64,000 bases of DNA, from contig NZ_CP075188.1 of assembly GCF_020510525.1 (NCBI RefSeq), positions 1,922,001-1,986,000 of the forward strand. Reading direction: 5' to 3'. The translations under genes and the position numbers were made by a program. Numbering within the stretch: position 1 is the stretch's first letter; each line of letters opens with the position of its first letter. The stretch comes from Quatrionicoccus australiensis. GTDB lineage: Bacteria; Pseudomonadota; Gammaproteobacteria; Burkholderiales; Rhodocyclaceae. Shown here piece by piece: positions 4,902 to 59,265 of the stretch. Below the pieces are notes generated by a model, which saw nothing but the letters and a program-made list of their open reading frames with translations, made no database searches and was not told the origin of the DNA.

Positions 4902-7685
4902 TCAGTTCTGCGTTTCCACCATGACCAGTGGTGCATCCTGGGACTGCTCGGCAGCAGTCTTCTGCTTGCGCGGACGCCCCAGCTTCACGGGTGCTTCCGG
5001 TTGGGCCATGAGCGGTGCCGCCGTGGTTTGCACGAGGACCAGGCCGCTTTCGGAAAGGGTCTTTTCCAGATCAACCGGAACGGCGACCGGTGCCACGATT
5101 TTGCTGCTTTCGACGACGTCGACCGCTACGGCGGCAATCGCGACTTCCGGTTCGGCTGCAGGAGGAGCGATTTCAGGTTGCGGCGCGGCTTCGACAGGTG
5201 CAGCAAGTGCTTCCGCCGGTGCAGCGACTTCAGTTGCCGGAGCTGTGACTTCAACTGCCGGAGCTGTGACTTCAGCTACCGGAGCGGCGGCTTCAACTGC
5301 CGGAGCGACGGCTTCGGTGATGGTGACGGCAACCGGCTCGACAGCAGCTGGTGCAGCTTCCTGGGCGAGGACCGGGGCAGGCTGGGCGGCCGGTTCCGGT
5401 GCCGGAATCACGACGACAACCGGTTCCTGGCTGATCTGCTCGGCGCTTTCGGCAACTGCCGGAGCCTTGTCCTGCGTTTCCGCCGGTGCTGCATTGACGC
5501 CGTTGTTCTCGGCTTCGTTGCGGCGTTCACCGCGGCCGCGACCACCGCGACGACCACGGCGACGGGCGCCCTGTTCTTCGCCGTTGCCGGCTTCGGGGGC
5601 ATCGCCGGCGTTGCCCGGCAGATTCAGGTTGGCCGTTTCAGCGGTAGCGACCGGAGCGTTCAGCTTGTTGTCGACGCTGGTTTCCGCCGGTTGCTGGCGA
5701 TCGCGGCGTTCCTTGCGTTCGCCGCGCGGGCGACGTTCCTGACGCTCGCCTGCATTGGCTGTCGTAGCGGTCGACTCTTCACGCGGGGCCTTTTCCGCGT
5801 TGCGTTCGCCGCGTTCGTTGCGATTGCCGCGTTCTTCGTCACGTCCCTTGTTGCGCCCGTTGCGGCGGCCATCCCTGCCTTCGCCACGTTCACGACGACC
5901 TTCGTTGCGGCCTTCGCGCGGCTTTTTCGGTGCCGGTTGGGCAACCGGTGCCGGTTCGGCAGCCTTGGGCTCGCTACGGAACCAGGAGAAGATCTTGGCG
6001 ATCAGGCCGGCTTCAGCCTGTGCCGCTGCCGGTGCCGGCACTTCCACCGTCTTTTCCGGCATGATCGGCGCCGGTTGTTCCGGCGAGATACCCTTGATCA
6101 TGGCTTCCTGGCGCGGCTTGGCAGCTTCGTCCTTGCCGTTGCCCGGCTTGCTGGCTTCCTCGATCGGGGCGTCGACCATCTTGTAGGACGGTTCACGCAC
6201 GTCGTCGTTGTTGAGGTCGTCGTGGCGCAGGCGGGTAATCGAATGTGCCGGCGTTTCCAGGTGGATGTTCGGGATCAGCAGGATGGTGACCTTGTGGCGC
6301 AATTCGATGGCCTGGATGTCCGGGCGCTTCTCGTTGAGCAGGAAGGTGGCAACATCGACCGGCATCTGGACATGCACGGCGCCGGTATTTTCCTTCATCG
6401 CTTCCTCTTCGAGGATGCGCAGGATGTGCAACGCGGCCGATTCGGTGGAGCGGATGTGGCCGGTGCCGGTACAGCGCGGGCAGGAGATGTAGCTGGTTTC
6501 GGCGAGAGCCGGACGCAGGCGCTGACGCGACAGTTCCATCAGGCCGAAGCGGCTGATCTTGCCCATCTGAACGCGAGCACGGTCGAAACGCAGCGCATCG
6601 CGCAGGCGGTTTTCGACTTCGCGCTGGTTCTTCTGGTTTTCCATGTCGATGAAGTCGATCACGATCAGGCCGCCGAGGTCGCGCAGGCGGAGCTGGCGGG
6701 CCAGTTCTTCTGCGGCTTCGAGATTGGTCTTGAACGCGGTTTCTTCAATATCGGCACCCTTGGTGGCGCGACCGGAGTTCACGTCGACTGCAACCAGCGC
6801 TTCTGTGTGGTCGATGACGATGGCGCCGCCGGACGGCAGGTTGACCTGGCGGACGAAGGCGGTTTCGATCTGGTGTTCGATCTGGAAGCGCGAGAAAAGC
6901 GGTACATCATCGCGGTAACGTTTGACGCGATTGATGTTGGCCGGCATCACCGTGCCCATGAAGGCGCGGGCCTGTTCGTACACCTCGTCGGTGTCGATGA
7001 GGATTTCACCGATTTCCGAGTGGAAGTAGTCGCGAATGGCGCGGATGACCAGGCTGCCTTCGAGGTAGATCAGGAAAGCACCACTCTGCTGCTTGGCGGC
7101 GCCTTCGATGGCGGTCCACAGCTGCATCAGGTAATTCAAGTCCCACTGCAGTTCCTCAGCCTGACGGCCGATGGCTGCGGTACGGGCGATCAGGCTCATG
7201 CCGCTGGGCACTTCGAGCTGGTCCATGGTGTCGCGCAATTCGGCGCGCTCGTCACCGTCGACGCGACGGGAAACACCACCGCCGCGCGGGTTGTTCGGCA
7301 TCAGCACGAGATAACGGCCGGCCAGGGAAACGTAGGTGGTCAGGGCGGCGCCCTTGTTGCCACGTTCGTCCTTGTCAACCTGGACGATCAGTTCCTGACC
7401 TTCCTTGAGGGCTTCGTTGATCTTGGCGCGACCAACTTCGATGCCGGGCTGGAAATAGGAACGGGAGACTTCCTTGAACGGCAGGAAGCCGTGTCGATCC
7501 GCGCCGTAGTCTACGAAGCAGGCTTCGAGACTGGGTTCGATGCGGGTGATGATCCCCTTGTAAATATTGCTTTTACGTTGTTCCTTGGCGGCTGATTCAA
7601 TGTCTAGGTCAATCAGTTTCTGACCATCAACAATGGCGACACGGAGTTCTTCAGCCTGTGTCGCATTGAAAAGCATGCGTTTCAT
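4902..7685 (-). CDS. rne: Ribonuclease E
   Basis: A 927-residue endoribonuclease that initiates mRNA decay and matures rRNA and tRNA; the C-terminal part normally scaffolds the degradosome. The N-terminus [22 protein letters not shown] is typical and sets the start at 7685, ten codons inside a longer frame. Next come the S1 domain ([13 protein letters not shown] onward), catalytic-site segments [10 protein letters not shown] and [11 protein letters not shown], and the zinc-link CPRC (about residue 404). From about residue 560 the protein is low complexity: Arg/Glu-rich blocks, then Ala/Pro/Glu repeats. It ends with KLGRPRKQ. The gene is divergent from rluC, as in many Proteobacteria. Confidence 0.96.
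5215..5319. repeat. Five 21-bp tandem repeats inside rne
   Basis: Five consecutive 21-bp units, two of them differing at one base, encode seven-residue repeats of the APAxEVT/A type in the disordered C-terminal region of RNase E. The length is a multiple of three, so copy-number change would keep the frame. Confidence 0.85.
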
Positions 7686-20664: not shown

Positions 20665-21264
20665 ATGAGTGAGCGCGAAGTCGACCAAATCCTGGTCGAG
20701 CGGGCGCAAGGCGGAGATCAGCGCGCCTTCGACCAGTTGGTGAGCAAATACCAGCGCAAGCTGGGACGTTTGCTGTCGCGCTTCATTCGCGACCAGGCTG
20801 AAGTGGAAGATGTTTCCCAGGAGGCTTTCATCAAGGCCTACCGTGCCTTGCCTTCCTTCCGGGGTGACAGTGCCTTTTACACCTGGCTGTACCGGATCGG
20901 CATCAATACTGCCAAGAACTACCTGGTTTCACAGGGTCGGCGGGCGCCAACCTCGACCGAGTTCGACTCCGAAGAGGCCGAAAACTTCGAGGATGCCAGC
21001 CAGCTGCGCGATATCAATACGCCGGAAAGCCTGTTGCTGTCGAAACAGATCGGGCAAACGGTGAATGCGGCGATGGATGCGCTGCCCGAGGAATTGCGTA
21101 CGGCCATCATGCTGCGTGAAATCGAGGGCATGTCCTACGAGGAAATCGCCGGCATCATGGATTGTCCGATCGGTACGGTGCGCTCCCGCATTTTCCGGGC
21201 GCGCGAAGCGGTTGCCGGAAAATTGCGTCCCTTGCTCGATATTGCGCCGGATCGGCGGTGGTGA
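20665..21264 (+). CDS. rpoE: RNA polymerase sigma factor RpoE (ECF, AlgU type)
   Basis: A 199-residue envelope-stress sigma factor. Region 2 includes DQAEVEDVSQEAFIKAYRALPSFRGDSAFYTWLYRI; region 4 has LREIEGMSYEEIAGIMDCPIGTVRSRIFRARE. Normally the next genes are rseA and rseB, which encode the membrane anti-sigma factor and its protector. Here rseC starts two bases after the stop. Upstream there is a TATACT box at 20612-20617 without a convincing -35. I see no RpoE-type GGAACTT promoter. Confidence 0.93.
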   Translation: MSEREVDQILVERAQGGDQRAFDQLVSKYQRKLGRLLSRFIRDQAEVEDVSQEAFIKAYRALPSFRGDSAFYTWLYRIGINTAKNYLVSQGRRAPTSTEFDSEEAENFEDASQLRDINTPESLLLSKQIGQTVNAAMDALPEELRTAIMLREIEGMSYEEIAGIMDCPIGTVRSRIFRAREAVAGKLRPLLDIAPDRRW

Positions 21265-21722: not shown

Positions 21723-23132
21723 ATGAAACGCTGGCTGGCTGTTTTCTCTCTTTGCTTTGCATGCACCACTGCTTTTGCCCAGGCCCGCGGCTTGCCGGAT
21801 TTTACCGAGCTGGCTGAAAGGCAGGGGCCGGCCGTGGTCAATATCAGCACGACGCAGGTGCAGCGCAGCGCTGCGGCGGCGCCTTTCCCGTTCGACGAGA
21901 ATGATCCGGCTTTCGAGTTTTTCAAACGCTTCATTCCCCGGCATCCCGGAGGTGGTACGCCGCGCGAGTTCGAGAACAAGTCGCTGGGTTCCGGCTTCCT
22001 GATCAGCCCGGATGGCTATGTCCTGACCAATGCTCATGTGATTGATGGTGCTGACGAAGTGACGGTGCGCCTGACCGACAAGCGTGAATTCAAGGCAAAG
22101 GTTGTCGGGGCCGACAAGCGGACCGATGTGGCGTTGATCAAGATCGAGGCCGCCAATCTGCCGGTTGTGAAGCTCGCCGATCCGGCGCAATTGAAGGTCG
22201 GAGAATGGGTGGTGGCCATCGGTTCGCCGTTCGGTTTTGACAATTCCGTGACGGCGGGCATTGTTTCAGCCAAGGGGCGCTCCTTGCCCCAGGAAAACTA
22301 TGTGCCTTTCATCCAGACCGATGTTGCGATCAATCCCGGCAATTCGGGTGGTCCGCTGTTCAACATGCGTGGCGAGGTGGTCGGTATCAACTCCCAGATA
22401 TACAGCCGCAGTGGCGGCTATATGGGTGTCTCGTTCGCGATTCCGATTGATGTGGCAATGGATGTCCAGCAGCAGTTGCGCGCTTCCGGCAAGGTCAGTC
22501 GCGGGCGTCTGGGTGTGGTCATCCAGGAGGTCAGCAAGGAGCTGGCTGATTCGCTGGGCTTGAGCAAGCCGGTTGGTGCCCTGGTCAATGCCGTTGAAAA
22601 GGGTGGGCCGGCCGAGAAGTCGGGCCTGGAGCCCGGTGATGTCATTCTCAGGTTTGATGGCAAGAATGTCGGCAATTCGGCTGACCTGCCGCGCCTGGTG
22701 GCGGCGACGCGACCGGGTACCCGGTCTGTCGTGCAAATCTGGCGCAAGGGTGCGCTGCGCGAAGTGTCGGTCACGGTCGGCGAGATTGTTGATGACAAGC
22801 AGGCGAACGGGCGGCCGTTGCGCAATGCCAAGCCGGCCGAGCCGGCTGCCAATCGCCTTGGTCTGGTGGTCTCCGAGTTGTCCGCCGAGCAGAAGCGCGA
22901 TCTCAAGCTGAATTCCGGCCTGCTGATCGAGGATGTTCGTGGTTCGGGTGGGCGGGCCGAGTTGCGTCCCGGTGATGTCATTGTTGCCGTGATCAGCAAA
23001 GGAGCGACTACCGAATTGAAGTCGGTCGACCAGTTCAACAAGCTGCTTGCCCAGTTCGACAAGGGGAGTAATGTCACCTTGCTGATCCGCCGCGGCGAGA
23101 TTCAGACCTTTGTCACCGTCAAGGGCTTGTGA
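21723..23132 (+). CDS. mucD: Periplasmic serine protease, DegP/MucD type
   Basis: A 469-residue Do-family protease and chaperone of the periplasm. It has a signal peptide (residues 1-20, cleavage after AFAQ or nearby) and the catalytic triad His105 (TNAHVIDG), Asp135 (RTDVALIK), Ser208 (NPGNSGGP). Two PDZ domains follow (about 260-350 and 375-465). The location downstream of rpoE and rseC fits MucD, which degrades misfolded envelope proteins and dampens AlgU signalling in Pseudomonas. Confidence 0.93.
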   Translation: MKRWLAVFSLCFACTTAFAQARGLPDFTELAERQGPAVVNISTTQVQRSAAAAPFPFDENDPAFEFFKRFIPRHPGGGTPREFENKSLGSGFLISPDGYVLTNAHVIDGADEVTVRLTDKREFKAKVVGADKRTDVALIKIEAANLPVVKLADPAQLKVGEWVVAIGSPFGFDNSVTAGIVSAKGRSLPQENYVPFIQTDVAINPGNSGGPLFNMRGEVVGINSQIYSRSGGYMGVSFAIPIDVAMDVQQQLRASGKVSRGRLGVVIQEVSKELADSLGLSKPVGALVNAVEKGGPAEKSGLEPGDVILRFDGKNVGNSADLPRLVAATRPGTRSVVQIWRKGALREVSVTVGEIVDDKQANGRPLRNAKPAEPAANRLGLVVSELSAEQKRDLKLNSGLLIEDVRGSGGRAELRPGDVIVAVISKGATTELKSVDQFNKLLAQFDKGSNVTLLIRRGEIQTFVTVKGL

Positions 23133-46277: not shown

Positions 46278-46877
46278 ATGTCTTCTGTCAGCCTTGATGT
46301 GCCGCCGCCAGTCCGGCGGGTTTTCCTTGATCCGCCGGGCGATCTGGCGATCTGGATTTTCATTCTTGCCGAGTTGCTCGCCTTTGCCGTCCTCTTTGTG
46401 CTTTACGGTGTGGCGCGGGCGCGCCATGTCGAGTTGTTCAACGAAATGCAGCTGACGTTGGACCGGAATGCCGGGGCGCTCAACACGATCCTGCTGATTA
46501 CCGGCAGCTGGTGCGTCGCCCGCGCGGTGGTGGCGATCAAGGGCGATGCCCGTGTCGCCAGCGCGCGCTGGCTGGCGGCCGGGATACTCGCCGGGCTCGG
46601 ATTTCTCGTCGTCAAATTGTTCGAGTACGACGCCAAGTTCGCGGCCGGCATCAATCTCGATACCAATTTGTTTTACATGTTCTACCTGTCGCTGACGTTC
46701 TTTCATTTCATGCACGTCATTCTCGGCCTGCTCATCCTCGTCTTCGTCTGGCACAAGACCAGGCAGGGCGGCTATTCGGCGGCCGACTGCCATGGCATGG
46801 AAAGCGGTGCCAGCTACTGGCACATGGTCGACCTCGTCTGGATCGTGCTTTTCCCGCTGGTCTACGTGCTGCGATGA
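46278..46877 (+). CDS. norE: NorE-like cytochrome c oxidase subunit III family protein
   Basis: A 199-residue membrane protein with about five transmembrane helices (LAIWIFILAELLAFAVLFVLYG, MFYLSLTFFHFMHVILGLLILVFVW, VDLVWIVLFPLVYVL). It belongs to the heme-copper oxidase subunit III family. NorE is not part of the purified cNOR complex but supports activity in Paracoccus. Its stop overlaps the next gene by 4 bases. Confidence 0.87.
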   Translation: MSSVSLDVPPPVRRVFLDPPGDLAIWIFILAELLAFAVLFVLYGVARARHVELFNEMQLTLDRNAGALNTILLITGSWCVARAVVAIKGDARVASARWLAAGILAGLGFLVVKLFEYDAKFAAGINLDTNLFYMFYLSLTFFHFMHVILGLLILVFVWHKTRQGGYSAADCHGMESGASYWHMVDLVWIVLFPLVYVLR

Positions 46878-47134
46878 ACACAAGTTTGCGCACGGATGCG
46901 GTATGGCTGGTGCTTTTACTAGGTACGGCCGTGACTTGGTGGCTGGGCGAAAACGGCCTGGCCGGCACGTCGACCGTACAGGCCATTCTCGCCATCGCCG
47001 GTGTCAAGGGCGTATTGGTGATTCGCGAATTCATGGCCCTGCGGGGCGTCAGGCCGGCTTGGCAGGGGACGGTCATTGGCTGGCTTTGCCTCGTCTTGCT
47101 GGTCAATATGGCTGCTTACTGGAAGGGAATCTGA
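46874..47134 (+). CDS. norF: NorF-like small membrane protein
   Basis: An 86-residue protein with three hydrophobic helices (AVWLVLLLGTAVTWWLGE, AILAIAGVKGVLVIREFMAL, VIGWLCLVLLVNMAAYW). Its size, topology and position directly after norE match NorF or the small subunit-IV-like proteins of oxidase clusters. The ATG overlaps the norE stop and its own stop overlaps the norQ ATG (TGATG). Confidence 0.78.
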   Translation: MNTSLRTDAVWLVLLLGTAVTWWLGENGLAGTSTVQAILAIAGVKGVLVIREFMALRGVRPAWQGTVIGWLCLVLLVNMAAYWKGI

Positions 47135-47934
47135 TGGACATGCGCACGCCAGGAACGGAAGCGCCGTACTACGAAGCCGAGGGCGCCGAGGTGGCGCTGT
47201 TCGAACATGCCTGGCGCAACAAGCTGCCGGTGCTGATCAAGGGGCCGACCGGCGTCGGCAAGACGCGCTTCGTCGCCCACATGGCGGCCCGGCTCGGCCT
47301 GCCGCTGCATACCGTGGCCTGTCACGACGATTTGACCGCAGCCGACCTGGTCGGTCGCCACCTGATCGAGGACGGTCGCACGGTCTGGAACGACGGGCCG
47401 CTGACCCGCGCCGTGCGCCATGGCGGCATCTGCTATCTCGACGAGGTGGTCGAGGCGCGCAAGGACACGACGGTGGTCATCCATCCGCTGGCCGATCATC
47501 GGCGAACCCTGCCGATCGACCGTACCGGCGAGGTGTTGCAGGCGCCGGACAACTTCATGCTGGTCGTTTCCTACAACCCCGGCTACCAGAACTTCCTCAA
47601 GGGCATGAAACCGTCGACGCGGCAGCGCTTCGTTTCGTTGCGTTTCGGTTTCCCGGCGCCGGCCCGCGAGGAGGCCATCCTGATCGGCGAAACCGGTTGC
47701 GACGCGCTGCTCGCCAAACGCCTGGTCGCGCTCGGCAACAGCATCCGCACTCTGAAGGATGTCGATCTCGAGGAAGTGGCGAGTACGCGTCTGCTGGTCT
47801 ACGCCGCCATCCTGATCGGCGACGGCCTCGACCCGGTCGCCGCCTGCCGCGCCGCGCTGGCCGAAAGCCTGTCCGACGACGAGGAAGTCACGGCCGGCCT
47901 GATGGAGATCATCCTTGCCAGCTTCGGCCGCTGA
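47134..47934 (+). CDS. norQ: NorQ, MoxR-type AAA+ ATPase
   Basis: A 266-residue AAA+ protein that, with NorD, inserts the non-heme iron into nitric oxide reductase. Walker A GPTGVGKT is at residues 37-44. Walker B GICYLDEVVEAR and the sensor segment VVSYNPGYQNFLKGMKPSTRQRF follow. The start at 47134 overlaps norF. Its gene lies upstream of norD, separated by a membrane ferredoxin gene, instead of directly next to it. Confidence 0.93.
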   Translation: MDMRTPGTEAPYYEAEGAEVALFEHAWRNKLPVLIKGPTGVGKTRFVAHMAARLGLPLHTVACHDDLTAADLVGRHLIEDGRTVWNDGPLTRAVRHGGICYLDEVVEARKDTTVVIHPLADHRRTLPIDRTGEVLQAPDNFMLVVSYNPGYQNFLKGMKPSTRQRFVSLRFGFPAPAREEAILIGETGCDALLAKRLVALGNSIRTLKDVDLEEVASTRLLVYAAILIGDGLDPVAACRAALAESLSDDEEVTAGLMEIILASFGR

Positions 47935-47938
47935 CCCA

Positions 47939-48101
47939 GGTGTCGTGTTGCACGCTATTCGGCACATAAAACTGCGCCTTTGTCCCCGTGGCGGCGTTAC
48001 AAATCCTCGCGATACCACTGCGTATCGCTGTGGTTTGCGCCTTGCCACAAGGCCAAATGCATCAGTTTTATCAAGTGCTGCATAGCATGCAACACGACAC
48101 C
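47939..48101. repeat. 163-bp imperfect palindrome (MITE- or REP-like element)
   Basis: The outer arms GGTGTCGTGTTGCA (47939-47952) and TGCAACACGACACC (48088-48101) are perfect inverted repeats. Homology continues inward with mismatches and 3-base indels (GCTAT, GCAC, ATAAAACTG, then a GGCG-rich part). A central perfect stem GCGATAC / GTATCGC (48009-48015 and 48022-48028) is at the tip. The whole could fold as one long hairpin. No target-site duplication is obvious. It lies between norQ and the ferredoxin gene and covers the start of the latter. Confidence 0.8.
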
Positions 48102-49049
48102 AGTCGCCAGCGCCGGCGTTTCGTCTGGCAGGCCGCCTTTTTCCTGCTCTTCGCGCTGGCGCCGGTTTTCAATGTCTTCCGTTACGACCTCGAAGCCGGG
48201 CACGCCTGGCTGCTCGGCATGCCCTGGCGGCTTGGCCTGGACGCCTTCATGGCGGGGCGGATCAGCGGCCTGGAGGCTGGCGGCAATCTTCTGCTGCGGC
48301 TGTTCCTGCCGCTGCTGCTCGCCGCCGGCGGCCTGATGCTGATCGCCTGGCGCTGGGGCCGCATCTACTGTGGCTGGCTGTGCCCGCATTTTTCCGCCGT
48401 GGAAACCATCAACCAGCTGATGCGGCGCGCCTCGGGCAAGTTGAGTATCTGGGACAGGCAGGCGCTGCCGCCGCGTCTGGCCGACGGCTCGCCGCGCCCG
48501 TCGCACCCGGTCTGGTGGATACCGACGGTCCTTTTCGCGATCGGTTTCGCGGCCCTGTGGGCAGTCGTGCTGCTCACCTATCTGCTGCCGCCGGCCGAGG
48601 TTTACGGCCGCCTGTGGGCGCTCGATCCGACACGCAACCAGGGCATTTTCCTGCTCGTCGCGACCAGCGTGCTGACCCTGGAGTTTCTCTTCGCCCGCCA
48701 TCTGTTCTGCCGCTTCGGCTGTGCCGTCGGGCTGTTCCAGAGCCTGGCCTGGATGAGCAACCGCGGCGCGATGGTGGTCGGCTTCGACAAGCCGCGCGCC
48801 GCCGATTGCGCCGCCTGCTACGACAACGGCGGACCGGGTTACGCCGCCTGCGAGGGCGTCTGCCCGATGCGCCTGCGGCCGCGTACGGCCAAGCACAAGA
48901 TGTTCGCCTGCACGCAATGCGCCCAGTGCGTGAGTGCCTGCGGCACGGTGCAGGAGCAGCGCGGCAAGGAAAGCCTGCTGCGCTGGGTTGACCAGGACGC
49001 TGCACGGCGCAACGAAGCACAGGTCAGCCTGACCGGAAATCGAGACTGA
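48087..49049 (+). CDS. Membrane-bound 4Fe-4S ferredoxin-type protein (CcoG/NapH-like)
   Basis: A protein of about 320 residues with four to five transmembrane helices. Cysteine motifs are YCGWLCPH, CRFGCAVGLFQ, CAACYDNGG with CEGVCP, and CTQCAQCVSACG, giving two cluster sites in the C-terminal domain. It resembles NapH, NosR or CcoG parts and may pass electrons or handle copper for NO reductase. The start is uncertain: ATG at 48087 lies in the right end of the palindrome, and an in-frame ATG at 48057 with AAGG upstream lies wholly inside it. Confidence 0.82.
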   Translation: MQHDTSRQRRRFVWQAAFFLLFALAPVFNVFRYDLEAGHAWLLGMPWRLGLDAFMAGRISGLEAGGNLLLRLFLPLLLAAGGLMLIAWRWGRIYCGWLCPHFSAVETINQLMRRASGKLSIWDRQALPPRLADGSPRPSHPVWWIPTVLFAIGFAALWAVVLLTYLLPPAEVYGRLWALDPTRNQGIFLLVATSVLTLEFLFARHLFCRFGCAVGLFQSLAWMSNRGAMVVGFDKPRAADCAACYDNGGPGYAACEGVCPMRLRPRTAKHKMFACTQCAQCVSACGTVQEQRGKESLLRWVDQDAARRNEAQVSLTGNRD

Positions 49050-49050
49050 A

Positions 49051-50886
49051 ATGGAAGAATGGGTTGGCGGCCTCTGGCACAAGTTCATCAGCGGTGCGGC
49101 GGCGAAGGATTATCCCGGCGCAGCGGTCCACCTCCCGGAAATGGAGAAAACGCTGGGCATGGTCTTTCGCGCCTTCGGTGGCGATGCCGGCCTGCGCGTG
49201 CAGGGCGCCACCGCTGAGCGGCATGGTGCGCGGCGCTCATTGCTGCAAAGGGTGGCTGGTAGCGGCGAGAAAATGCAGGCGGCCGGGCTCGATGGCGTCA
49301 GCCTGCGCCTGCCGGCGCACATCGCCGTTTTTCCGGAAAGCGGCCTGAATCGCGATCTCTATGTCTGGCTGGCGGCACTCGCCGCGCATGATGTGCCGAG
49401 TGACGAAGCCTGGATCATCCGCAACCAGCGGGCGACGGTGGTGACGCTGGCGCGCTGTCCGGGCCTGCTGCCACGTTATCGCAAGCTGGTCGCGGCGCTC
49501 CTCGCCCGGCGCCCGGACCCGCAGTCCCTGCCGGCTGACGAGGCAGCGCAGGAAACGGCGGTGTGCCAGGCCTTGCAGGTGCCCGGTTCAGTCTCTTGCT
49601 GGCCGGGGCTGAGCCGGCGCGGTGCCCGGGAGATTGCACCGGTGCCCCTGTGGCTTTATCCGCTGGCCGGCGCCGTCGGCGCGCCGCGTCGCCTGCAGCA
49701 TCAGGAATCCGCCGCAGATGTCGAGGCCGAGGACGCCGAGGGGCGGCAAAAGGCGCGACAGACGGAAATGCCGGCCGAGAAGGACGGCATCCTGCTGCTG
49801 TTTCGCGCTGAAAGCATTTTTTCCTGGGCCGAGTACGTCAAGGTCAATCGCTCGCAGGATGACGAAGCCGACGGCAAGGCCGCCAAGGCGGCCGAAAGCA
49901 TGGATCAGCTCGACGTCGCCCAGGATGGCGAGCGCGTCGCCTCACGCGTGCGTTTCGACCTCGACCTGCCGGCCGCGGCCGAGGATGATCTGCCGCTCGG
50001 AGCGGGCATTCCGCTGCCCGAGTGGGATTTTCGCAAGCAGCTCCTGCAGCCCGATTATTGCCGGCTGCAGGCCATGGAATCGCGCCATGTCGAGCCGATC
50101 CCGCTGCCTGAGCGCCTGCGTCCGCATGCCCGGCGCCTGCGTAACCAGTTTGCCGCGCTGGCGCCGACCCGGCGCTGGCTGAAAGCGCAGCCGGAAGGCA
50201 TCGAGCCGGATATCGACGCCTGGGTACGTTTGCAGGCAGATCGTCAGGCCGGCCATCCGGACGCAGCAGCCGGTCTTTACCTGGCCCAGGTGCAGCAGGA
50301 GCGCGATCTGGCGTGCCTGGTTCTGGCCGATTTGTCCTTGTCGACCGATGCCTGGGCTTCCAACGAACAAAAGGTGATCGACGTGATCCGCGACAGCCTG
50401 ATGCTGTTTGCCGAGGCGCTTGGCGCGACCGGCGACCGCTTTGCGCTGTGCGGCTTTTCCTCGCTCAAGCGCGGCCACGTCCGCTTCCACGAACTGAAAG
50501 CTTTCGAGCGGCCATGGGACGACCTGGCGCGTGGGCGCGTGCAGGCGATCAAGCCCGGCTATTACACCCGGCTCGGTGCCGCCATCCGCCACAGTTGTAC
50601 CTTGCTCGGCCGGCAAGCCAACCGGCAGCGCCTGCTGCTCATCCTGTCCGATGGCAAGCCGCATGATCTCGATCTCTACGAGGGCCGTTACGGCATCGAA
50701 GACACCCGGGCGAGCATCACTGCGGCGCGGGAGCAGGGCATCCGCCCGTTTTGCGTGACCATCGACAAGGAGGCAGCAAGCTACCTGCCGCATGTCTTTG
50801 GTGCGCATGGCTTCACCTTGCTGCGCCGGCCGGAGGAGCTGGCCACCCGTTTGCCGCTGCTTTACGCGCAACTGACGCGGGATTGA
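49051..50886 (+). CDS. norD: NorD, von Willebrand factor A domain protein
   Basis: A 611-residue protein needed with NorQ to activate nitric oxide reductase. The C-terminal VWA domain contains the metal-ion-dependent adhesion motif DLSLSTDAW, a later Thr/Gly segment (YTRLGAAIRHS) and LSDGKPHDLDLYEGRYG. The N-terminal two-thirds is helical and includes an acidic variable stretch near residue 230. It starts one base after the ferredoxin stop. Its stop codon lies in an 11-bp tandem repeat. Confidence 0.92.
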   Translation: MEEWVGGLWHKFISGAAAKDYPGAAVHLPEMEKTLGMVFRAFGGDAGLRVQGATAERHGARRSLLQRVAGSGEKMQAAGLDGVSLRLPAHIAVFPESGLNRDLYVWLAALAAHDVPSDEAWIIRNQRATVVTLARCPGLLPRYRKLVAALLARRPDPQSLPADEAAQETAVCQALQVPGSVSCWPGLSRRGAREIAPVPLWLYPLAGAVGAPRRLQHQESAADVEAEDAEGRQKARQTEMPAEKDGILLLFRAESIFSWAEYVKVNRSQDDEADGKAAKAAESMDQLDVAQDGERVASRVRFDLDLPAAAEDDLPLGAGIPLPEWDFRKQLLQPDYCRLQAMESRHVEPIPLPERLRPHARRLRNQFAALAPTRRWLKAQPEGIEPDIDAWVRLQADRQAGHPDAAAGLYLAQVQQERDLACLVLADLSLSTDAWASNEQKVIDVIRDSLMLFAEALGATGDRFALCGFSSLKRGHVRFHELKAFERPWDDLARGRVQAIKPGYYTRLGAAIRHSCTLLGRQANRQRLLLILSDGKPHDLDLYEGRYGIEDTRASITAAREQGIRPFCVTIDKEAASYLPHVFGAHGFTLLRRPEELATRLPLLYAQLTRD

Positions 50887-50917
50887 CGCGGGATTGATGC
50901 GGGTTTGACGCGGGTTT
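50874..50917. repeat. 11-bp tandem repeat at the norD stop codon
   Basis: Four consecutive units of the form gacgcgggatt / gatgcgggttt (50874-50884, 50885-50895, 50896-50906, 50907-50917) and a partial fifth. The first unit ends in the norD TGA. Since 11 is not a multiple of three, added copies upstream of the stop would change the reading frame. Confidence 0.85.
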
Positions 50918-50987
50918 GACGCCGAGCCCGCTGCCGCTAAGCGGTTGACCTACATTTTCGGGTGTTTTTGCCTGTACCCGGAAATTC

Positions 50988-51001
50988 TTGACTTCCATCA
51001 A
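50988..51001 (+). promoter_or_regulatory. Fnr/Dnr-type box upstream of norC
   Basis: TTGACTTCCATCAA matches TTGAT-N4-ATCAA at nine of ten positions. Its centre is 88 bases before the norC ATG, which allows a class II promoter starting near 51036. It indicates separate activation of norCB by an Fnr/Dnr-type regulator. Confidence 0.75.
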
Positions 51002-51082
51002 TGAGCCGCAATGGTCTTCTCCCGTACCTTCCGTCCAGCTGTCGGCAGCCGCCGGCAGGGACTTTAGCTCAAGGGGGAAACA

Positions 51083-52892
<1,810 letters not shown>

Positions 52893-52913
52893 TTGATTGC
52901 TGCTGTGACTTTG

Positions 52914-52943
52914 GGGCCCTCTTCATGCGAGGGCCCATTTTTT
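52914..52943 (+). terminator. Intrinsic terminator of norCB
   Basis: Stem gggccctc / gagggccc with a 7-base loop, then a and six T. It lies between norB and the nosD-like gene. Confidence 0.87.
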
Positions 52944-52958
52944 CTGGTGTAAGGAGCC

Positions 52959-54185
52959 ATGCCGTACGCCAAATGCACGTCCTTTCTGCTGCTTCTCCTG
53001 GCTTGCCTGCTGCCGGCCATCGCCATTGCCGTCCAGCCGCTGCAACCCTGGCTCGACTCGGCTTCGCCGGGTAGTCGCATCCGTTTGCCGCCCGGTATCT
53101 ACAGCGGTCCGGCGGTGATCAGCAAGGCGCTGACGCTGGAAGGTGACGGGCAGGTGATCATTGATGCCGGCGGCAGCGGCACAGTGCTGACGGTCAAGGC
53201 CAACGACGTCAGCTTGCGCGGGCTGCATCTGCGCGCGAGCGGCGATTCGCACGACGCCATCGATAGCGGCCTGCATGTCGAAGGGCAGCGCATCCTGATC
53301 GAGAACAACCGCATCGATGACACGCTGTTCGGGATCGTCCTGCACAGCACCGGCGACAGCATCGTGCGCAACAACCGCATCCGTTCGAAGGCCTTTGCCG
53401 CGGCCGATCGGGGCGACGGCCTGCGCTTGTGGAACAGCAGCGGCAACCTGATCGTCGGCAACGACATCGCGGAGATCCGCGACATCACGGTCAGCAATTC
53501 ACCGCGCAACCGCTTCGTCGGCAATCGCGTCTACGACAGCCGGCGCGCCTTCAATCTGCTCTTCGCCAATCGCAGCCTGATTGAGGGCAACACCCTGGAA
53601 CGCAACTCGACGGGCATCATCGCCCTCAATTCCGACGGCGTGATCATCCGCAACAACCGCGTCATGCATGCCATGGACGCCTCCGGCGCCGGCATCGCGG
53701 TCAAGGAAACCTCGGCCGCGCTGATCATCGGCAACGACATCGTGCATTGCGCCTACGGCATCATGGCCGATTCGCCGATGCACCCGATCAACCGTATCGT
53801 CCTCATCGACAACCGGGTCGCCCACAACGTGACCGGCATCTATTTCTATGGCGAGAAGGGCGGTCACATCGCGCTTCGCAATCGCTTCGAAAGCAATATC
53901 TGGCAGGTCGCGATGGCGAGTACCGGCGATCCGCTGAACGACACTTGGTCGGGCAACTACTGGGACGATTACCAGGGCTTCGACCGCAATGGCGACGGGG
54001 TCGGCGATACGCCGCACGAGATCTACACCTACGCCGACCGCATCTGGCTGGAGACGCCACCGGCCAAGTTCTTCCGCAATTCGCCGCTGCTCGAATTGCT
54101 CGATTTTCTCGAGCGCCTGGCGCCGTTTTCGCAACCCGATCTGGTGCTGCGCGATCCGGCGCCGCTGATCAACCGGCCGCGCTGA
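52959..54185 (+). CDS. NosD-like periplasmic beta-helix protein
   Basis: A 408-residue exported protein (signal peptide about residues 1-24) made of right-handed parallel beta-helix repeats with the NosD/CASH pattern (ENNRIDDTLFGIVL, GNDIAEIRD, EGNTLERNSTGIIALNS). A C-terminal NYWDDYQGFDRNGDGVGDTP segment is typical of NosD. NosD normally helps copper-site assembly in nitrous oxide reductase together with NosF and NosY. None of these, nor nosZ, is in the window. Here it follows norB, so it may serve NO reductase or a distant nos cluster. Confidence 0.85.
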   Translation: MPYAKCTSFLLLLLACLLPAIAIAVQPLQPWLDSASPGSRIRLPPGIYSGPAVISKALTLEGDGQVIIDAGGSGTVLTVKANDVSLRGLHLRASGDSHDAIDSGLHVEGQRILIENNRIDDTLFGIVLHSTGDSIVRNNRIRSKAFAAADRGDGLRLWNSSGNLIVGNDIAEIRDITVSNSPRNRFVGNRVYDSRRAFNLLFANRSLIEGNTLERNSTGIIALNSDGVIIRNNRVMHAMDASGAGIAVKETSAALIIGNDIVHCAYGIMADSPMHPINRIVLIDNRVAHNVTGIYFYGEKGGHIALRNRFESNIWQVAMASTGDPLNDTWSGNYWDDYQGFDRNGDGVGDTPHEIYTYADRIWLETPPAKFFRNSPLLELLDFLERLAPFSQPDLVLRDPAPLINRPR

Positions 54186-54192
54186 AAACTTG

Positions 54193-54214
54193 AGGCGCTG
54201 CAGGGCGCCTTTTT
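54193..54214 (+). terminator. Intrinsic terminator of the nosD-like gene
   Basis: Stem aggcgc / gcgcct with a 6-base loop followed by four to five T, 8 bases after the stop codon. Confidence 0.65.
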
Positions 54215-54217
54215 CCT

Positions 54218-54235
54218 GGTGAAAAATATTTCACC
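54218..54235. promoter_or_regulatory. Palindrome upstream of the hvf operon
   Basis: GGTGAAAAATATTTCACC is a perfect 7-bp inverted repeat around AATA. It lies just upstream of a candidate ECF promoter. It could be an operator or a second weak terminator stem. No regulator is known for it. Confidence 0.4.
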
Positions 54236-54240
54236 GGCCA

Positions 54241-54269
54241 TGTAAGAAAAGCGTTCTCCGTTCGACTAA
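54241..54269 (+). promoter_or_regulatory. Candidate ECF-sigma promoter of the hvf operon
   Basis: TGTAAGAAA at 54241-54249 and TTCGACTAA at 54261-54269 are spaced like the -35 and -10 of ECF promoters. The sigma factor encoded at 56804 would be the natural user. There is no good sigma70 pair. The call is pattern-based. Confidence 0.4.
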
Positions 54270-54325
54270 TCCCCTGAGCGACGATCAAGCCGCTCGCTGG
54301 ATCCCAACCCTTACGGAGAAAAATC

Positions 54326-54607
54326 ATGAAAAAGCAAAACCTCGTTTCCCTGGCCGTCGGTTCCGTCATTGCCGCCGCTTCCTTTGCCGGCCACGCCGCC
54401 GACAATCCTTTCGCCGCCAAGCAGTTGAGTGCCGGCTACCAGTTGGCCCAGGCCGACAAGAAGGCTGACGGCAAATGCGGCGAAGCCAAGTGTGGCGCCG
54501 ACAAGAAAGCCGCCGAGAAAAAGGCGGATAAAAAGGCTGACGGCAGCTGCGGTGCCGGCAAGGGCGACAAAAAGGCCGACGGCAGCTGCGGCGGCAACAA
54601 GAAGTAA
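54326..54607 (+). CDS. hvfA: HvfA-type Cys-rich RiPP metallophore precursor
   Basis: A 93-residue exported precursor. A signal peptide (cleavage near GHA-ADN) is followed by ADNPFAAKQLSAGYQLAQAD, the usual HvfA leader. The Lys-rich core carries four Cys in D/E-x-K/S-C-G motifs: DGKCG, EAKCG and two DGSCG. In characterised HvfA systems the EGKCG cysteines are modified by the HvfB/HvfC enzyme pair to oxazolone-thioamide groups that bind copper. Modification here is inferred from the intact hvfB and hvfC downstream. A strong GGAG ribosome site precedes the ATG. Confidence 0.88.
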   Translation: MKKQNLVSLAVGSVIAAASFAGHAADNPFAAKQLSAGYQLAQADKKADGKCGEAKCGADKKAAEKKADKKADGSCGAGKGDKKADGSCGGNKK

Positions 54608-54673
54608 GAAGCGGCAAGGAATTTGCGGCGGCGCGGGGTTTTCCCCGTTGCCCGCTGCCCAAGGAGAAATGCG

Positions 54674-55534
54674 ATGAGCTTTGCCACTTCTGCCGGCCGC
54701 ATGCCGCACGGTGCCGGTCTCGGCCTGCGCCGCGAACTGCTGGGCGAGCTTGCCGACGGCGTCCCCGACGCGATCGGCTTTTTCGAGATTGCCCCGGAAA
54801 ACTGGGCCGGCATGGGCGGGCGCTCGGCGCGCCAGTTGCGCCAGCTGACCGAGCGGCATGCCTTCGTCTGCCACGGCCTGTCGTTGTCGCTGGGCGGACC
54901 GGACCCGCTCGATACGGCGCTCCTGCAACGCATCAAGGCTTTCATGGCGGAACACGACATCGGCCTCTATACCGAGCATCTGTCCTGGTGCGCCGCCGGC
55001 AGTCATCTCTACGAACTGCTGCCGCTACCGCTGACGGAAAAAGCCGTCAAATGGACGGTCGACCGTATCGCCCGGACGCAGGACCTGCTCGGGCGCCGGA
55101 TCGGCATCGAGAACGCCTCGTACTACATCGCGCTGCCGGGCGCCGAGATGCGCGAGACGGATTTCATCGCGGCCGTCCTTAATCAGGCCGACTGCCTGCT
55201 GCATCTCGACGTGAACAACATCTACGTGAACAGCCGCAATTTCGGCTTCGATCCTGAAGCCTTCCTGCGTGCCTTGCCGCTCGAACGCACCTGCTACATC
55301 CATGTCGCCGGGCATTATGTCGAGCCGGACGGGCTGCTCATCGACACGCATGGCGCGGAGGTCATTGATCCGGTGTGGGCGCTGCTCGCCGAGGCTTACG
55401 CGCAGATTGGCCATATCCCGCCGACCTGTCTCGAGCGTGATTTCAATTTGCCATCCCTGGACCGGTTGACCGCTGAAATCGGGCAGATTTCACGTTTGCA
55501 GGCGGCGGCTGGGCAAATCCGGCGGGCGGCATGA
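54674..55534 (+). CDS. hvfB: HvfB-type MNIO enzyme (DUF692)
   Basis: A 286-residue multinuclear non-heme iron-dependent oxidative enzyme of the MbnB/HvfB family with a TIM-barrel fold. Expected metal-binding segments are seen: FEIAPENW, VCHGLSLSLGG, YTEHLSWC, IENASYYI, HLDVNNIYVN, HVAGHY and DTHG, ending in LERDFNLP. It oxidises cysteines of the precursor. The ATG at 54674 follows AAGGAGAAA. It overlaps hvfC by 4 bases. Confidence 0.93.
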   Translation: MSFATSAGRMPHGAGLGLRRELLGELADGVPDAIGFFEIAPENWAGMGGRSARQLRQLTERHAFVCHGLSLSLGGPDPLDTALLQRIKAFMAEHDIGLYTEHLSWCAAGSHLYELLPLPLTEKAVKWTVDRIARTQDLLGRRIGIENASYYIALPGAEMRETDFIAAVLNQADCLLHLDVNNIYVNSRNFGFDPEAFLRALPLERTCYIHVAGHYVEPDGLLIDTHGAEVIDPVWALLAEAYAQIGHIPPTCLERDFNLPSLDRLTAEIGQISRLQAAAGQIRRAA

Positions 55535-56286
55535 TGAACGGCGATTTCCAGACCTTTCAGTACGAGCTGGCCGCGCATCTGCGCGCGCCGCGCCAGACGT
55601 CGCGGCCGCCTGGCGTGCCGGCGCGGCGCGCCGGTGTCTATCGCGAACTGGTGTTCAACAACCTGTGCAGTTTTCTCGATCCCTGTTTCCCGCTCTGCCG
55701 CGAACTGCTCGGCGAAAAACGCTGGCGGCGCTTGTGCCGCAGCTTCCAGCGTGACTGGCCTTTGCATACGCCGTGGTTTCGCGAGATTCCCGGCGAGTTC
55801 GTGCGCTATCTGGCCGAGGCGACCATCCGCCAGCCGCTGCCGGCCTGGCTGGCGGAGCTGGCGCATTACGAGTGGGCCGAGCTGGCGGTCGACGTCATGG
55901 AAACAGGCAAAACCGGGAGCAAAACCACGGCCAATCCGGCGGGCGATCTGATGGACGCGGTCATCGTCCTCAATCCGGCACTGATGAATCTCGCCTATCG
56001 CTGGCCGGTGCAGCATATCGGCCCGGATTACCGGCCGCGCCGGATGCAGGCGACACACCTGGTCGTCTATCGGGACGCCGACGATACGGTCCGTTTCAGC
56101 GAAATCAGTCCGCTCACGGCGCGCCTGCTTGAACTGCTCGCCGCCGACACCGCCTCCGGTCGCCAGGTGCTGAGCCGCCTGGCCGCCGAAATCAGTCATC
56201 CGCAACCCGCGCAACTGCTTGCCTACGGCCGCGAACTGCTGGCCGAGCTGTGTGCGCAAGGCATCCTGCTCGGGAGTCGTGCATGA
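55531..56286 (+). CDS. hvfC: HvfC-type partner protein (DUF2063)
   Basis: A 251-residue protein with the N-terminal DUF2063 domain (VPARRAGVYRELVFNNLCSFLDPCFPLCRELLG, W-rich HTPWFREIPGEFVRYL). It is the usual partner of DUF692 enzymes and is thought to bind the precursor leader. The annotation as a DNA-binding domain in databases is historical. It is coupled by ATGA overlaps to hvfB upstream and the DoxX gene downstream. Confidence 0.9.
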   Translation: MMNGDFQTFQYELAAHLRAPRQTSRPPGVPARRAGVYRELVFNNLCSFLDPCFPLCRELLGEKRWRRLCRSFQRDWPLHTPWFREIPGEFVRYLAEATIRQPLPAWLAELAHYEWAELAVDVMETGKTGSKTTANPAGDLMDAVIVLNPALMNLAYRWPVQHIGPDYRPRRMQATHLVVYRDADDTVRFSEISPLTARLLELLAADTASGRQVLSRLAAEISHPQPAQLLAYGRELLAELCAQGILLGSRA

Positions 56287-56822
56287 AAAACCGCATTTTT
56301 CGTATGTTGAGCGCTGTCGATGTGCTCGGTCTCTATCTCGGCCTGCTCAGCCTGCGCCTGCTGCTCGGCTGGGATTTTTTCGAGTCCGGGCTGGAGAAAT
56401 TCCGTGGCGAAAACTGGTTCGCCGACATCGTCGACCGCTTTCCCTTTCCGTTCAATGTCGTGCCGCCGGAGATCAGCTGGCAGATGGCGACCTGGTTCGA
56501 ATTGCTGGGCGGCGTTGCGCTGGTGCTGGGGCTGGCGACGCGCTTCTTTTCCGTGTCGCTGATCGTGTTGACCGTGGTCGCCATCGCCGCCGTGCATTGG
56601 CCGGAAAGCTGGTCCGGCCTGGCCGAACTGATGCAGGGTTACGGCTTCACCGACCACGGTCAGGGCAATTTCAAGCTGCCCGTGCTGTTCATTGGTATGC
56701 TGTGGCCGCTCGTGCTGCTCGGGCCGGGAAAGCTGTCGGTCGACGCTGTTTTTCGCCGTCTTTTCGAGCGCACCTCATCAACAGCCGCCTGCAGGACGCC
56801 GCCTTGCCCGACACCGCACTGA
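56283..56822 (+). CDS. hvfD: DoxX-family membrane protein (HvfD type)
   Basis: A 179-residue membrane protein with about four helices. Hallmarks are LRLLLGWDFFESGLEKFRGENWFADIVDRFP and WFELLGGVALVLGLATRF. DoxX proteins accompany DUF692/DUF2063 pairs in Hvf operons, and their role there is not settled. The ATG at 56283 overlaps the hvfC stop. The C-terminal residues (RTSSTAACRTPPCP) are read where the sigma gene starts in another frame. Confidence 0.85.
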   Translation: MKNRIFRMLSAVDVLGLYLGLLSLRLLLGWDFFESGLEKFRGENWFADIVDRFPFPFNVVPPEISWQMATWFELLGGVALVLGLATRFFSVSLIVLTVVAIAAVHWPESWSGLAELMQGYGFTDHGQGNFKLPVLFIGMLWPLVLLGPGKLSVDAVFRRLFERTSSTAACRTPPCPTPH

Positions 56823-57397
56823 TCGACGACGATTTTGTCACCGCCATCCGGCGCGACCTGTTGAAGTTCGCGCAACTGCAGTTGCGCGATGCGGCATTGG
56901 CCGAAGATGCGGTGCAGGAGGCGCTCGCTGCAGCCTGCTCGGGGTCACGCCAGTTTGCCGGGCGGGCGGCGCTGAAGACCTGGGTGTTTTCCATCCTGCG
57001 CCACAAGATCGTCGATCTGATCCGGCAGCAAAGCCGCACCACCAACATCTCGGCACTCGGCGACGACGAGGCCGGGCTGGATGAAGCCTTCGACACCTTG
57101 TTCAAGCAGAACGCCCACTGGCGGCCGGAGGCGCGCCCGGGCGACTGGGGCAACCCGGAGGAAGCGCTGCGCGAAAGCCGCTTCTGGGAGGTTTTCGAAA
57201 TCTGCCTGAATCACCTGCCGGAAAACACGGCGCGCGTCTTCATGATGCGCGAGTTTCTTGAATTCGAGACCGCCGAGGTCTGCAGCGAGCTGGCGATCAG
57301 CGTCAGCAACTGCAACGTGATCCTGCATCGCGCCCGCAACGGCCTGCGCCGCTGCCTGGAGACGAGCTGGTTCGCACCGGGAGAAAAGCCATGCTGA
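56804..57397 (+). CDS. ECF RNA polymerase sigma factor
   Basis: A sigma factor of about 197 residues. Region 2 is seen in FAQLQLRDAALAEDAVQEALAAAC and LKTWVFSILRHKIVDLIRQQ; region 4 in LPENTARVFMMREFLEFETAEVCSELAISVSNCNVILHRAR. The best start is a TTG at 56804 with CAGGA upstream, overlapping hvfD by 19 bases; a CTG five codons earlier is possible. It most likely drives the hvf operon together with the anti-sigma factor encoded next. Confidence 0.9.
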   Translation: MPDTALIDDDFVTAIRRDLLKFAQLQLRDAALAEDAVQEALAAACSGSRQFAGRAALKTWVFSILRHKIVDLIRQQSRTTNISALGDDEAGLDEAFDTLFKQNAHWRPEARPGDWGNPEEALRESRFWEVFEICLNHLPENTARVFMMREFLEFETAEVCSELAISVSNCNVILHRARNGLRRCLETSWFAPGEKPC

Positions 57398-57594
57398 GCT
57401 GCAAGGAAGCCACCCACCTGATGTCCGAAGGACTGGATCGCAAACTGGGCACTGGCGAGCAATTGCAGTTGCGCCTGCATCTGGCGATGTGCAGCGGCTG
57501 TCGCAACTTCCGCGAACAGATGGATTTCCTGCGCGCTGCCTGCCGCAACTTCCCCGGTCGGGACAAGGCGGACGAAAGCCAGCCGCCCAAATGA
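57391..57594 (+). CDS. Zinc-finger anti-sigma factor
   Basis: A 67-residue cytoplasmic protein of the zf-HC2 (ZAS) family: CKEATHLMSE, then H-x3-C-x2-C (HLAMCSGC). It lacks a transmembrane helix, so it would sense the signal in the cytoplasm, perhaps directly by its metal- and thiol-containing site. It overlaps the sigma gene by 7 bases, a classical sigma/anti-sigma coupling. Confidence 0.9.
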   Translation: MLSCKEATHLMSEGLDRKLGTGEQLQLRLHLAMCSGCRNFREQMDFLRAACRNFPGRDKADESQPPK

Positions 57595-57596
57595 AA

Positions 57597-57616
57597 AACG
57601 GGGCCGTAGCCCCGTT
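57597..57616. terminator. Terminator between the hvf operon and ccoNQ
   Basis: Stem aacggggc / gccccgtt with a cgta loop. On the minus strand it is followed by TTTT, so it ends the ccoNQ transcript. It may also end the hvf transcript. Confidence 0.75.
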
Positions 57617-57634
57617 GACCGTTCAGCCCGCCGT

Positions 57635-57814
57635 TCAGCGGCGCAGCAACAGCGCCTTGCGTTGCAGCTCCAGCTCTTCCGGATCGGAGAAGGGCAGGTT
57701 GGCGGCTTCGGCAAAGTCGGACTTGCGGCGGCCGCTGTAGGCCCAGAAAACGATCACGAGGAAGCAGACCAGGCCTGCAACGGTGATCAGGGAACGCATT
57801 TCGTTGATATCCAT
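57635..57814 (-). CDS. ccoQ: CcoQ-like cbb3 oxidase small subunit
   Basis: A 59-residue protein with one transmembrane helix (SLITVAGLVCFLVIVFWAY) and a charged cytosolic tail (SGRRKSDFAEAANLPF). This is the FixQ/CcoQ pattern. It lies 23 bases after ccoN, where ccoO would normally be found. The start at 57814 (MDINEMRSL) has a good position behind the ccoN stop. Confidence 0.88.
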   Translation of the reverse strand: MDINEMRSLITVAGLVCFLVIVFWAYSGRRKSDFAEAANLPFSDPEELELQRKALLLRR

Positions 57815-57837
57815 GGTGATGGCCTTTATCGCAAAGA

Positions 57838-59265
<1,428 letters not shown>

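Follow-up and report, generated by a model that had tools for sequence, protein, structure and literature searches.

The closest described counterparts of the operon studied here belong to Neisseria and Haemophilus. The gonococcal genes NGO1948-1943 encode a DoxX protein, a periplasmic protein, a DUF692 protein, a DUF2063 protein, an extracytoplasmic function (ECF) sigma factor and an unknown protein (PMC2954202). The meningococcal genes NMB2140-2145 have the same order, with mseR as the last gene; the operon is autoregulated, and the methionine sulfoxide reductase gene msrAB is the other protein-coding target shown (PMC2893595). A small RNA was added to this sigma-E regulon, together with smaller, probably indirect effects (PMC3240639). 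In Haemophilus, the peptide cluster and msrAB were RpoE2-dependent under hypochlorite (HOCl), and HrsE, a cytoplasmic protein of 67 residues, is inhibitory (PMC7907618). Here we analysed a six-gene operon in a 64,000-nucleotide stretch of the Quatrionicoccus australiensis genome (contig NZ_CP075188.1, positions 1,922,001 to 1,986,000; hereafter the window), which is very probably a captophorin operon of the HvfABCX type, for a 5-thiooxazole metallophore, with its own autoregulatory switch of the sigma-E/MseR and RpoE2/HrsE kind. The kind of system is already known, since its six gene types are those of the autoregulated Neisseria sigma-E operon and Haemophilus RpoE2 controls a homologous cluster and msrAB. 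New here is a regulon prediction, which comprises the promoter position, two targets in the own genome and a controlled, genus-wide set of sites; the enzyme signature is a further addition.

The six co-directional genes lie with their predicted promoter in the window region 54241-57594, all on the plus strand (open reading frame coordinates; the host genome is closed, at 4.17 Mb). They are hvfA (54326-54607), encoding a 93-aa precursor; hvfB (54674-55534), encoding an MNIO (DUF692) enzyme; hvfC (55531-56286), encoding a DUF2063/NGO1945-type partner protein; hvfX (56283-56822), encoding a DoxX-family membrane protein; an ECF sigma gene (56804-57397) with a TTG start and an upstream AGGA, both read from the sequence; and the gene of a 67-aa anti-sigma factor (57391-57594). 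The gap between hvfA and hvfB is 66 bases, and the genes from hvfB through hvfC, hvfX and sigma to anti-sigma overlap by exactly 4, 4, 19 and 7 bases; the original prediction had given the same six genes, coordinates, lengths and overlaps. The proteins matched the Pfam families MbnB_TglH_ChrH, DUF2063 plus NGO1945_C, DoxX, Sigma70_r2/r4_2 and zf-HC2, and five of them passed the cut-offs of their family models: HvfB in NF003818 (389.3 bits, cut-off 360), HvfC in NF050145 (285.5 bits, cut-off 142), HvfX in NF050144 (138 bits, cut-off 80), the sigma factor in TIGR02943 (258.7 bits, cut-off 162.2) and the anti-sigma factor in NF052368 (80.2 bits, cut-off 50). Profile searches for DUF692, DUF2063 and TIGR-type ECF families, which the original prediction had proposed as a check, thus all gave matches. 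Its assignment to an HvfABCD type was right as to the family and wrong as to the name, since the DoxX gene is hvfX in the family naming and the gene set is therefore HvfABCX.

The MNIO family had a single match in the whole 4.17-Mb genome. By sequence, the solved structure closest to HvfB was 3BWW, and HvfC matched 3DEE, the structure of the gonococcal NGO1945 protein. Membership of the bufferin (DUF2282, Buf1) group was rejected (HvfB scored 256.7 bits against 310 in the BufB model, and HvfA had no Pfam match at E 0.001), as was methanobactin membership (33.6 bits for HvfB against a cut-off of 325 in TIGR04159, MbnB). In the plasmid collection no record covered 80% of the operon, the best place reaching 23%.

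Compared by description rather than by sequence, the Neisseria sigma-E/MseR operon, whose peptide is gonophorin, shares with the window the six gene types, and it has autoregulation and msrAB as a second target. It differs in that the DoxX gene comes first, whereas hvfX follows hvfC in the window, in the small RNA of the meningococcal regulon and in belonging to a different bacterial group. The hvfABCX and RpoE2/HrsE system of Haemophilus influenzae is alike in its HvfA, HvfB, HvfC and HvfX types, its 67-aa soluble anti-sigma factor and its targets, the cluster and msrAB. There, however, rpoE2-hrsE adjoins msrAB apart from the hvf cluster, while in the window the hvf operon includes the sigma genes; the Haemophilus HvfA carries modifications on six Cys in EGKCG motifs, compared with four Cys in the window HvfA.

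The enzyme signature placed HvfB among the Lys-Cys type MNIOs. FonB of Fontimonas makes 5-thiooxazoles, a group that oxazolin and gonophorin also carry, and MNIOs of this type conserve Arg15, Arg16 and Phe250, the last of which adjoins Asp249, the proposed catalytic base (PMC12668002). The Haemophilus product is likewise a thiooxazole (PMC13419390). In our alignment, which took in a chosen part of the MNIOs in the loci, the window HvfB held these residues as R19, R20, D256 and F257. Both the Arg-Arg and the Asp-Phe pair were present in 11/11 same-genus Hvf-type enzymes, and neither pair occurred in any of the 13 MNIOs of 31-38% identity (0/13); among five enzymes from other groups, at 51-61% identity, Asp-Phe was present in 5/5 and Arg-Arg in 4/5. 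By comparison with the family, for which this chemistry is now assigned, we infer that up to four Cys of HvfA would be converted to 5-thiooxazoles. Copper, which captophorins bind (PMC12668002, PMC13419390), is the likely ligand of the product.

HvfA has a signal-like N-terminus, as judged by eye, a GYQLAQAD segment and four Cys in the motifs DGKCG (51), EAKCG (56), DGSCG (75) and DGSCG (88), two of KCG and two of SCG form, exactly as first described. It scored above the cut-off in the short-motif model NF050137 (26.9 bits, cut-off 19.5), with residues 42-59 as the only matched part. We compared it with the genus precursors, a set of 19 distinct sequences defined by GYQLA and at least one Cys-Gly. 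Their motifs were EAKCG (41), DGKCG (34), EGKCG (11), DAKCG (6), DGSCG (5), DASCG (4), EASCG (2), DAACG (2) and three singletons, which indicates that the KCG motifs of the window are ordinary and its SCG motifs less common yet recurrent. The motifs labelled as variant earlier thus recur in the genus. DGKCG is fully modified by the homologous enzyme pair FonBC, and EAKCG occurs natively in FonA, within the segment SGEAKCGEGKCGEK, which shows a 4-Da loss at each Lys-Cys (PMC12668002). With 93 residues HvfA was the shortest of the 19; four precursors, HvfA included, had 4 Cys, fourteen had 6 and one had 8. (Q/E)AD recurred around the required GYQLA, and we suggest that this segment may serve HvfC as its recognition sequence. 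The fontiphorin operon fonABC of Fontimonas thermophila, also of the captophorin class, is similar in its Lys-Cys MNIO signature, in accepting DGKCG and in having EAKCG natively, but FonA carries seven thiooxazoles, compared with four Cys here, and in the available part of the fonABC paper the word sigma stands in the reference list alone.

The soluble zinc-finger anti-sigma factor of the original prediction was borne out by the zf-HC2 and NF052368 matches and by the residues of the zinc anti-sigma (ZAS) type. All 28 homologues aligned (28/28) kept Cys-x25-His-x3-Cys-x2-Cys, 27 of them having Cys as residue 4, and the numbering Cys4-His30-Cys34-Cys37 equals that published for MseR, in a comparison of positions rather than of the MseR sequence. 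In MseR, Cys34 is essential and Cys4 and Cys37 contribute to activity (PMC2893595). Searched by sequence against solved structures, the anti-sigma factor gave no match up to E = 0.1. Among the matches listed, the named records nearest to the sigma protein were from Azonexus, at 76 and 71% identity.

The predicted ECF promoter, TGTAAG-N16-CGACTAA, lies at 54241-54269 (+) as TGTAAGAAAAGCGTTCTCCGTTCGACTAA, 56 bases before hvfA. The pattern was found upstream of hvfA in 6/6 same-strand operons shown (the window and five same-genus loci, L062 having CGTAAC in place of TGTAAG) and before the anti-sigma gene that heads the hvf operon in 5/5 divergent genus loci. Across these loci TGTAAG and CGAC were 16-17 bases apart, and CGAC was followed by TAA, CAA or GAA. 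The meningococcal sigma-E motif consists of GTMAGBWTT and CGTCTAAH with 12-13 bases between them (PMC2893595); measured alike, the window has GTAAGAAAA and CGACTAAT spaced by 12, with the -10 different at one position and the -35 extension at three. A strict consensus scan for sigma-70-type sites found none in 54100-57800, which says little because chance alone gives 0.3 sites. At two loci, L147 (G215) and L154 (G190), the pattern stood directly before hvfX-sigma-anti-sigma, which may represent an inner promoter; the window had no second strict site.

We searched the genome for the strict pattern TGTAAGAA-N13-15-CGACNAA and found two sites in 4.17 Mb, with no mirrored controls. One lies before hvfA and the other, at contig positions 2360970-2360999 on the minus strand, before a gene for an MsrA-MsrB protein, which is lipoprotein-like (lipobox by eye) with MsrA at residues 44-206 and MsrB at 330-445; the slightly looser pattern applied to the genus below gave the same two sites and one mirrored control. 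The still looser GTAA-N16-18-CGACNAA was rejected, as it gave 13 sites and 31 mirrored controls and is mostly noise because the controls exceed the sites. Ten of its 11 extra sites were inspected by eye and none precedes a gene like the genus targets; the eleventh is inside a NosD-like gene, at window 53945-53972.

In 36 genomes of the same genus, the own genome included, TGTAAG-N15-17-CGACNAA occurred at 74 sites, compared with 39 for the mirrored pattern. Sites were classed by the gene starting within 320 bases, and the 72 outside the own genome were inspected with their flanks. A target-like gene was found at 62/74 sites and, on either side, at 0/39 mirrored controls. The largest class was hvfA or an anti-sigma-led hvf operon (19/74), followed by MsrA-MsrB fusions (9/74), thioredoxin-like proteins (7/74), MsrB (5/74), MsrP (4/74), DoxX or sigma (4/74), DUF2282 bufferins (3/74), ArsS radical SAM proteins (3/74) and, at 2/74 each, DsbD-like, DUF1223 and NPCAA-repeat proteins and a class that we take to be TVP38-like. 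No recognised target was seen at the remaining 12/74 sites, which still count in the total of 74; two of these (L201, L203) are at contig ends. The query set for the classing includes ten proteins that derive from the sites themselves and hence match their own site, and the weakest assignment is MsrB at L170, where the inferred start overlaps the site. Query families fixed beforehand (hvf, DoxX, sigma/anti-sigma and MsrAB) cover 37/74 sites. A comparison of long open frames (37/39 controls, 23/60 target sites and 3/12 others) was rejected because the flanks differ, the controls having about 1000 bases on each side and the real sites about 100 upstream.

Some of these sites stood before less expected genes. 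At L159, L173 and L204 the pattern was followed by a DUF2282 bufferin-type precursor and then an MNIO gene, so that one switch may serve two captophorin types. In genome G185, two divergent pattern sites (L205:1854-2180 (-) and L206:258-920 (+)) each preceded an NPCAA-repeat protein, Cys-rich and signal-like by eye, one with a SoxA/TsdA-type cytochrome domain and the other without an NCBIfam match; both may be additional metal or redox peptides belonging to this regulon. In three genomes (L172, L186 and L200), ArsS-type radical SAM genes were located behind the pattern, which was unexpected in a redox regulon.

Co-occurrence points the same way as the promoter pattern, and together they give good support to the claim, made in the original prediction, of a sigma/anti-sigma pair belonging to the operon. 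The sigma factor (best E-value 1e-20 or better) was found in 28/36 genus genomes, several of which are incomplete. An MNIO match was present in 25/28 sigma-positive and 0/8 sigma-negative genomes, although in three of the 25 (G185, G210 and G218) the matches were at 38-44% only and bufferin-like. The eight sigma-negative genomes had four pattern sites, none before a recognised target. We read 20 genus sigma loci, from the window and from 19 of the 27 other sigma-positive genomes. The hvf genes preceded sigma on the same strand in 8/20, with hvfX only in one at a contig end, and sigma was opposite anti-sigma-hvfABC in 5/20. At L077-L081, about 5700-6555, the anti-sigma gene heads the hvf operon, sigma is divergent and the promoter pattern lies in between, which wires the same parts in another way. 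More widely, 19/185 genomes of a class-wide sample scored above the TIGR02943 cut-off. Among the best 80 of 258 sigma relatives from named genomes, the inspected stretch held an anti-sigma gene beside sigma in 76, an MNIO in 17, an MsrAB relative in 4 and an hvfA-like precursor in 6, including Azonexus hydrophilus, Acinetobacter haemolyticus, Moraxella, Methylobacillus and Methylobacter.

The reading of the locus as an autoregulated captophorin operon combines what was computed (gene content, families, enzyme signature, promoter pattern, two-site prediction and co-occurrence) with a proposed regulation, chemistry on the four Cys, copper binding, export and signal. At rest, the small cytoplasmic zinc anti-sigma factor would hold the sigma factor. 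Stress would free it, most likely through oxidation of the anti-sigma Cys/zinc site by hypochlorite-like or disulfide-forming oxidants, with copper-driven oxidation as a possible further route; an oxidant acting on the anti-sigma factor appears distinctly more probable to us than direct copper sensing. The freed sigma factor would transcribe from 54241-54269, raising the peptide pathway, sigma and anti-sigma together, and would use the second promoter before the exported MsrA-MsrB protein. HvfC would present HvfA to HvfB, and up to four Cys would become thiooxazoles before export; the exported product would then bind copper in the periplasm, while MsrAB would repair oxidised methionines. Sensing and modification had been left open in the original prediction. 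This holds for the direct signal and for the fate of the two DGSCG sites, whereas work on Neisseria has already described the operon of six genes, how it regulates itself and what the anti-sigma Cys residues do, and RpoE2 control under hypochlorite is published for Haemophilus.

Hydrogen peroxide raises msrAB and two of the operon genes in gonococci (PMC2893595), which fits this reading; several results weigh against it. Meningococcal sigma-E was unresponsive to the oxidants tested (PMC2893595), and Haemophilus without rpoE2 was not more sensitive to oxidants in vitro (PMC7907618). HvfA scored 29.4 bits in the full-length model NF050188, against a cut-off of 95, and no substrate test of DGSCG was found among the variants in the available part of PMC12668002. 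Families for 25 of the 62 target sites were named after the sites had been inspected, and the genus genomes are related and therefore not independent tests. In 7/20 genus sigma loci, hvf genes were not seen in the inspected stretch, and the link of the sigma factor with hvf is hence not exclusive.

These seven loci bear on the idea that the sigma factor mainly controls the repair of oxidised methionines and thiols, with hvf as a lineage-specific addition and the operon neighbourhood incidental. Methionine-sulfoxide reductases behind 18/74 sites, thioredoxin- or DsbD-like proteins behind 9/74 and the MNIO in only 17 of the best 80 of 258 named relatives fit it as well, but no other target class is as large as the hvf operon and no sigma-negative genome had an MNIO match; we regard this account as improbable. 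Slightly less doubtful, though still unlikely, is a decaying precursor in which modification is confined to the DGKCG-EAKCG pair and both DGSCG sites are relics. HvfA is the shortest of the genus precursors, with 4 Cys where fourteen have 6, and its NF050137 match is limited to one segment; against decay, several genus members likewise have Ser, Ala or Asn in front of Cys, a count of 4 Cys is shared by three others, and the enzyme genes are open with scores above the family cut-offs.

The strongest of the alternatives, which we nevertheless hold to be rather unlikely, is that the switch is primarily a sensor of copper or heavy metals, as assumed for gig and bufferin operons, and that methionine-sulfoxide repair is co-regulated owing to copper-driven oxidation. 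Besides copper binding by captophorins, it is favoured by the induction of gig by copper and gold in Cupriavidus, beside rpoQ-rsqA (PMC10304878), and by the control of bufferin-type operons by Caulobacter sigma-F under dichromate (PMC3511200). These systems and Sinorhizobium RpoE7, which controls a DUF692/DUF2063 operon (PMC6180224), resemble the window in that an ECF sigma factor adjoins or controls an MNIO/DUF2063 peptide operon, but their anti-sigma factors are of other types and their genes are arranged divergently or apart. RsqA is a predicted membrane-bound protein, and an RpoQ-dependent gig start was not shown in the part of the paper available (PMC10304878); the sigma-F partner is a DUF1109 protein with six membrane segments (PMC3511200). 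The window anti-sigma factor, in contrast, has the residues of the soluble ZAS type, as in MseR, HrsE and RsrA, and many of the targets predicted in the genus serve the repair of oxidised proteins. Precursors differ as well: those of Caulobacter are DUF2282-type, and gig is called a bufferin cluster (PMC12452194). Sigma and NrsF genes are reported in Buf1 clusters (PMC12452194). The copper-responsive SigAb of Acinetobacter was considered as a relative and rejected, as judged by description, because AabA has a cytoplasmic domain plus an RseA-like periplasmic part and the -10 is CGTT.

A wider proposal, which we hold to be less likely than not, is that captophorins are a standing component of the repair of oxidised proteins in the periplasm and not a response to copper in itself. 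In this genus, a soluble zinc-redox switch would deploy thiooxazole peptides of the HvfA and DUF2282 types together with MsrAB, MsrP, MsrA/B and thioredoxin-like proteins, and the peptide would remove copper, or scavenge oxidant, that would re-oxidise repaired methionines. The pairing of captophorin and methionine-sulfoxide reductase recurs under different sigma factors, namely sigma-E in Neisseria, RpoE2 in Haemophilus and sigma-F with YedY (MsrP-type) in Caulobacter; the last controls two DUF2282-DUF692-DUF2063 sets and YedY, with its msrA genes unchanged (PMC3511200). A few EGKCG clusters contain PF00174 or ferric-reductase genes (PMC12452194), PF00174 being the domain of the MsrP found behind the same promoter pattern in the genus. 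In the partly covered literature joining methionine sulfoxide reductase and DUF692, a general captophorin-Msr link was not stated, and the available literature calls for further study of the specific biological function of captophorins. Within an environmental lineage, the regulon predicted here is small and sharply defined; it links a probable copper-binding peptide with the repair of methionine sulfoxide and makes the question of copper versus oxidant testable.

The operon sits between a cluster of nitric-oxide-reductase type, whose last gene is of the NosD family, and a cbb3 oxidase cluster of opposite direction. Directly 5' of it, window 46792-54185 encodes CbbQ/NirQ/NorQ-type AAA, Fer4_5, VWA, cytochrome c, COX1-family subunit and NosD-family proteins, and from these domains looks like a nitric-oxide-reductase cluster. 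The cbb3 genes (ccoN, FixQ type; 57635-59265, (-)) converge on the operon, with a terminator-like hairpin for them at 57597-57616, in a scan that found 5 such sites against 4.2 in shuffles. A second ECF sigma gene (20665-21264, (+)), with a weak TIGR02943 match (57.8 bits), lies upstream of a protease-like gene (21723-23132), and the two together look like a classical RpoE system.

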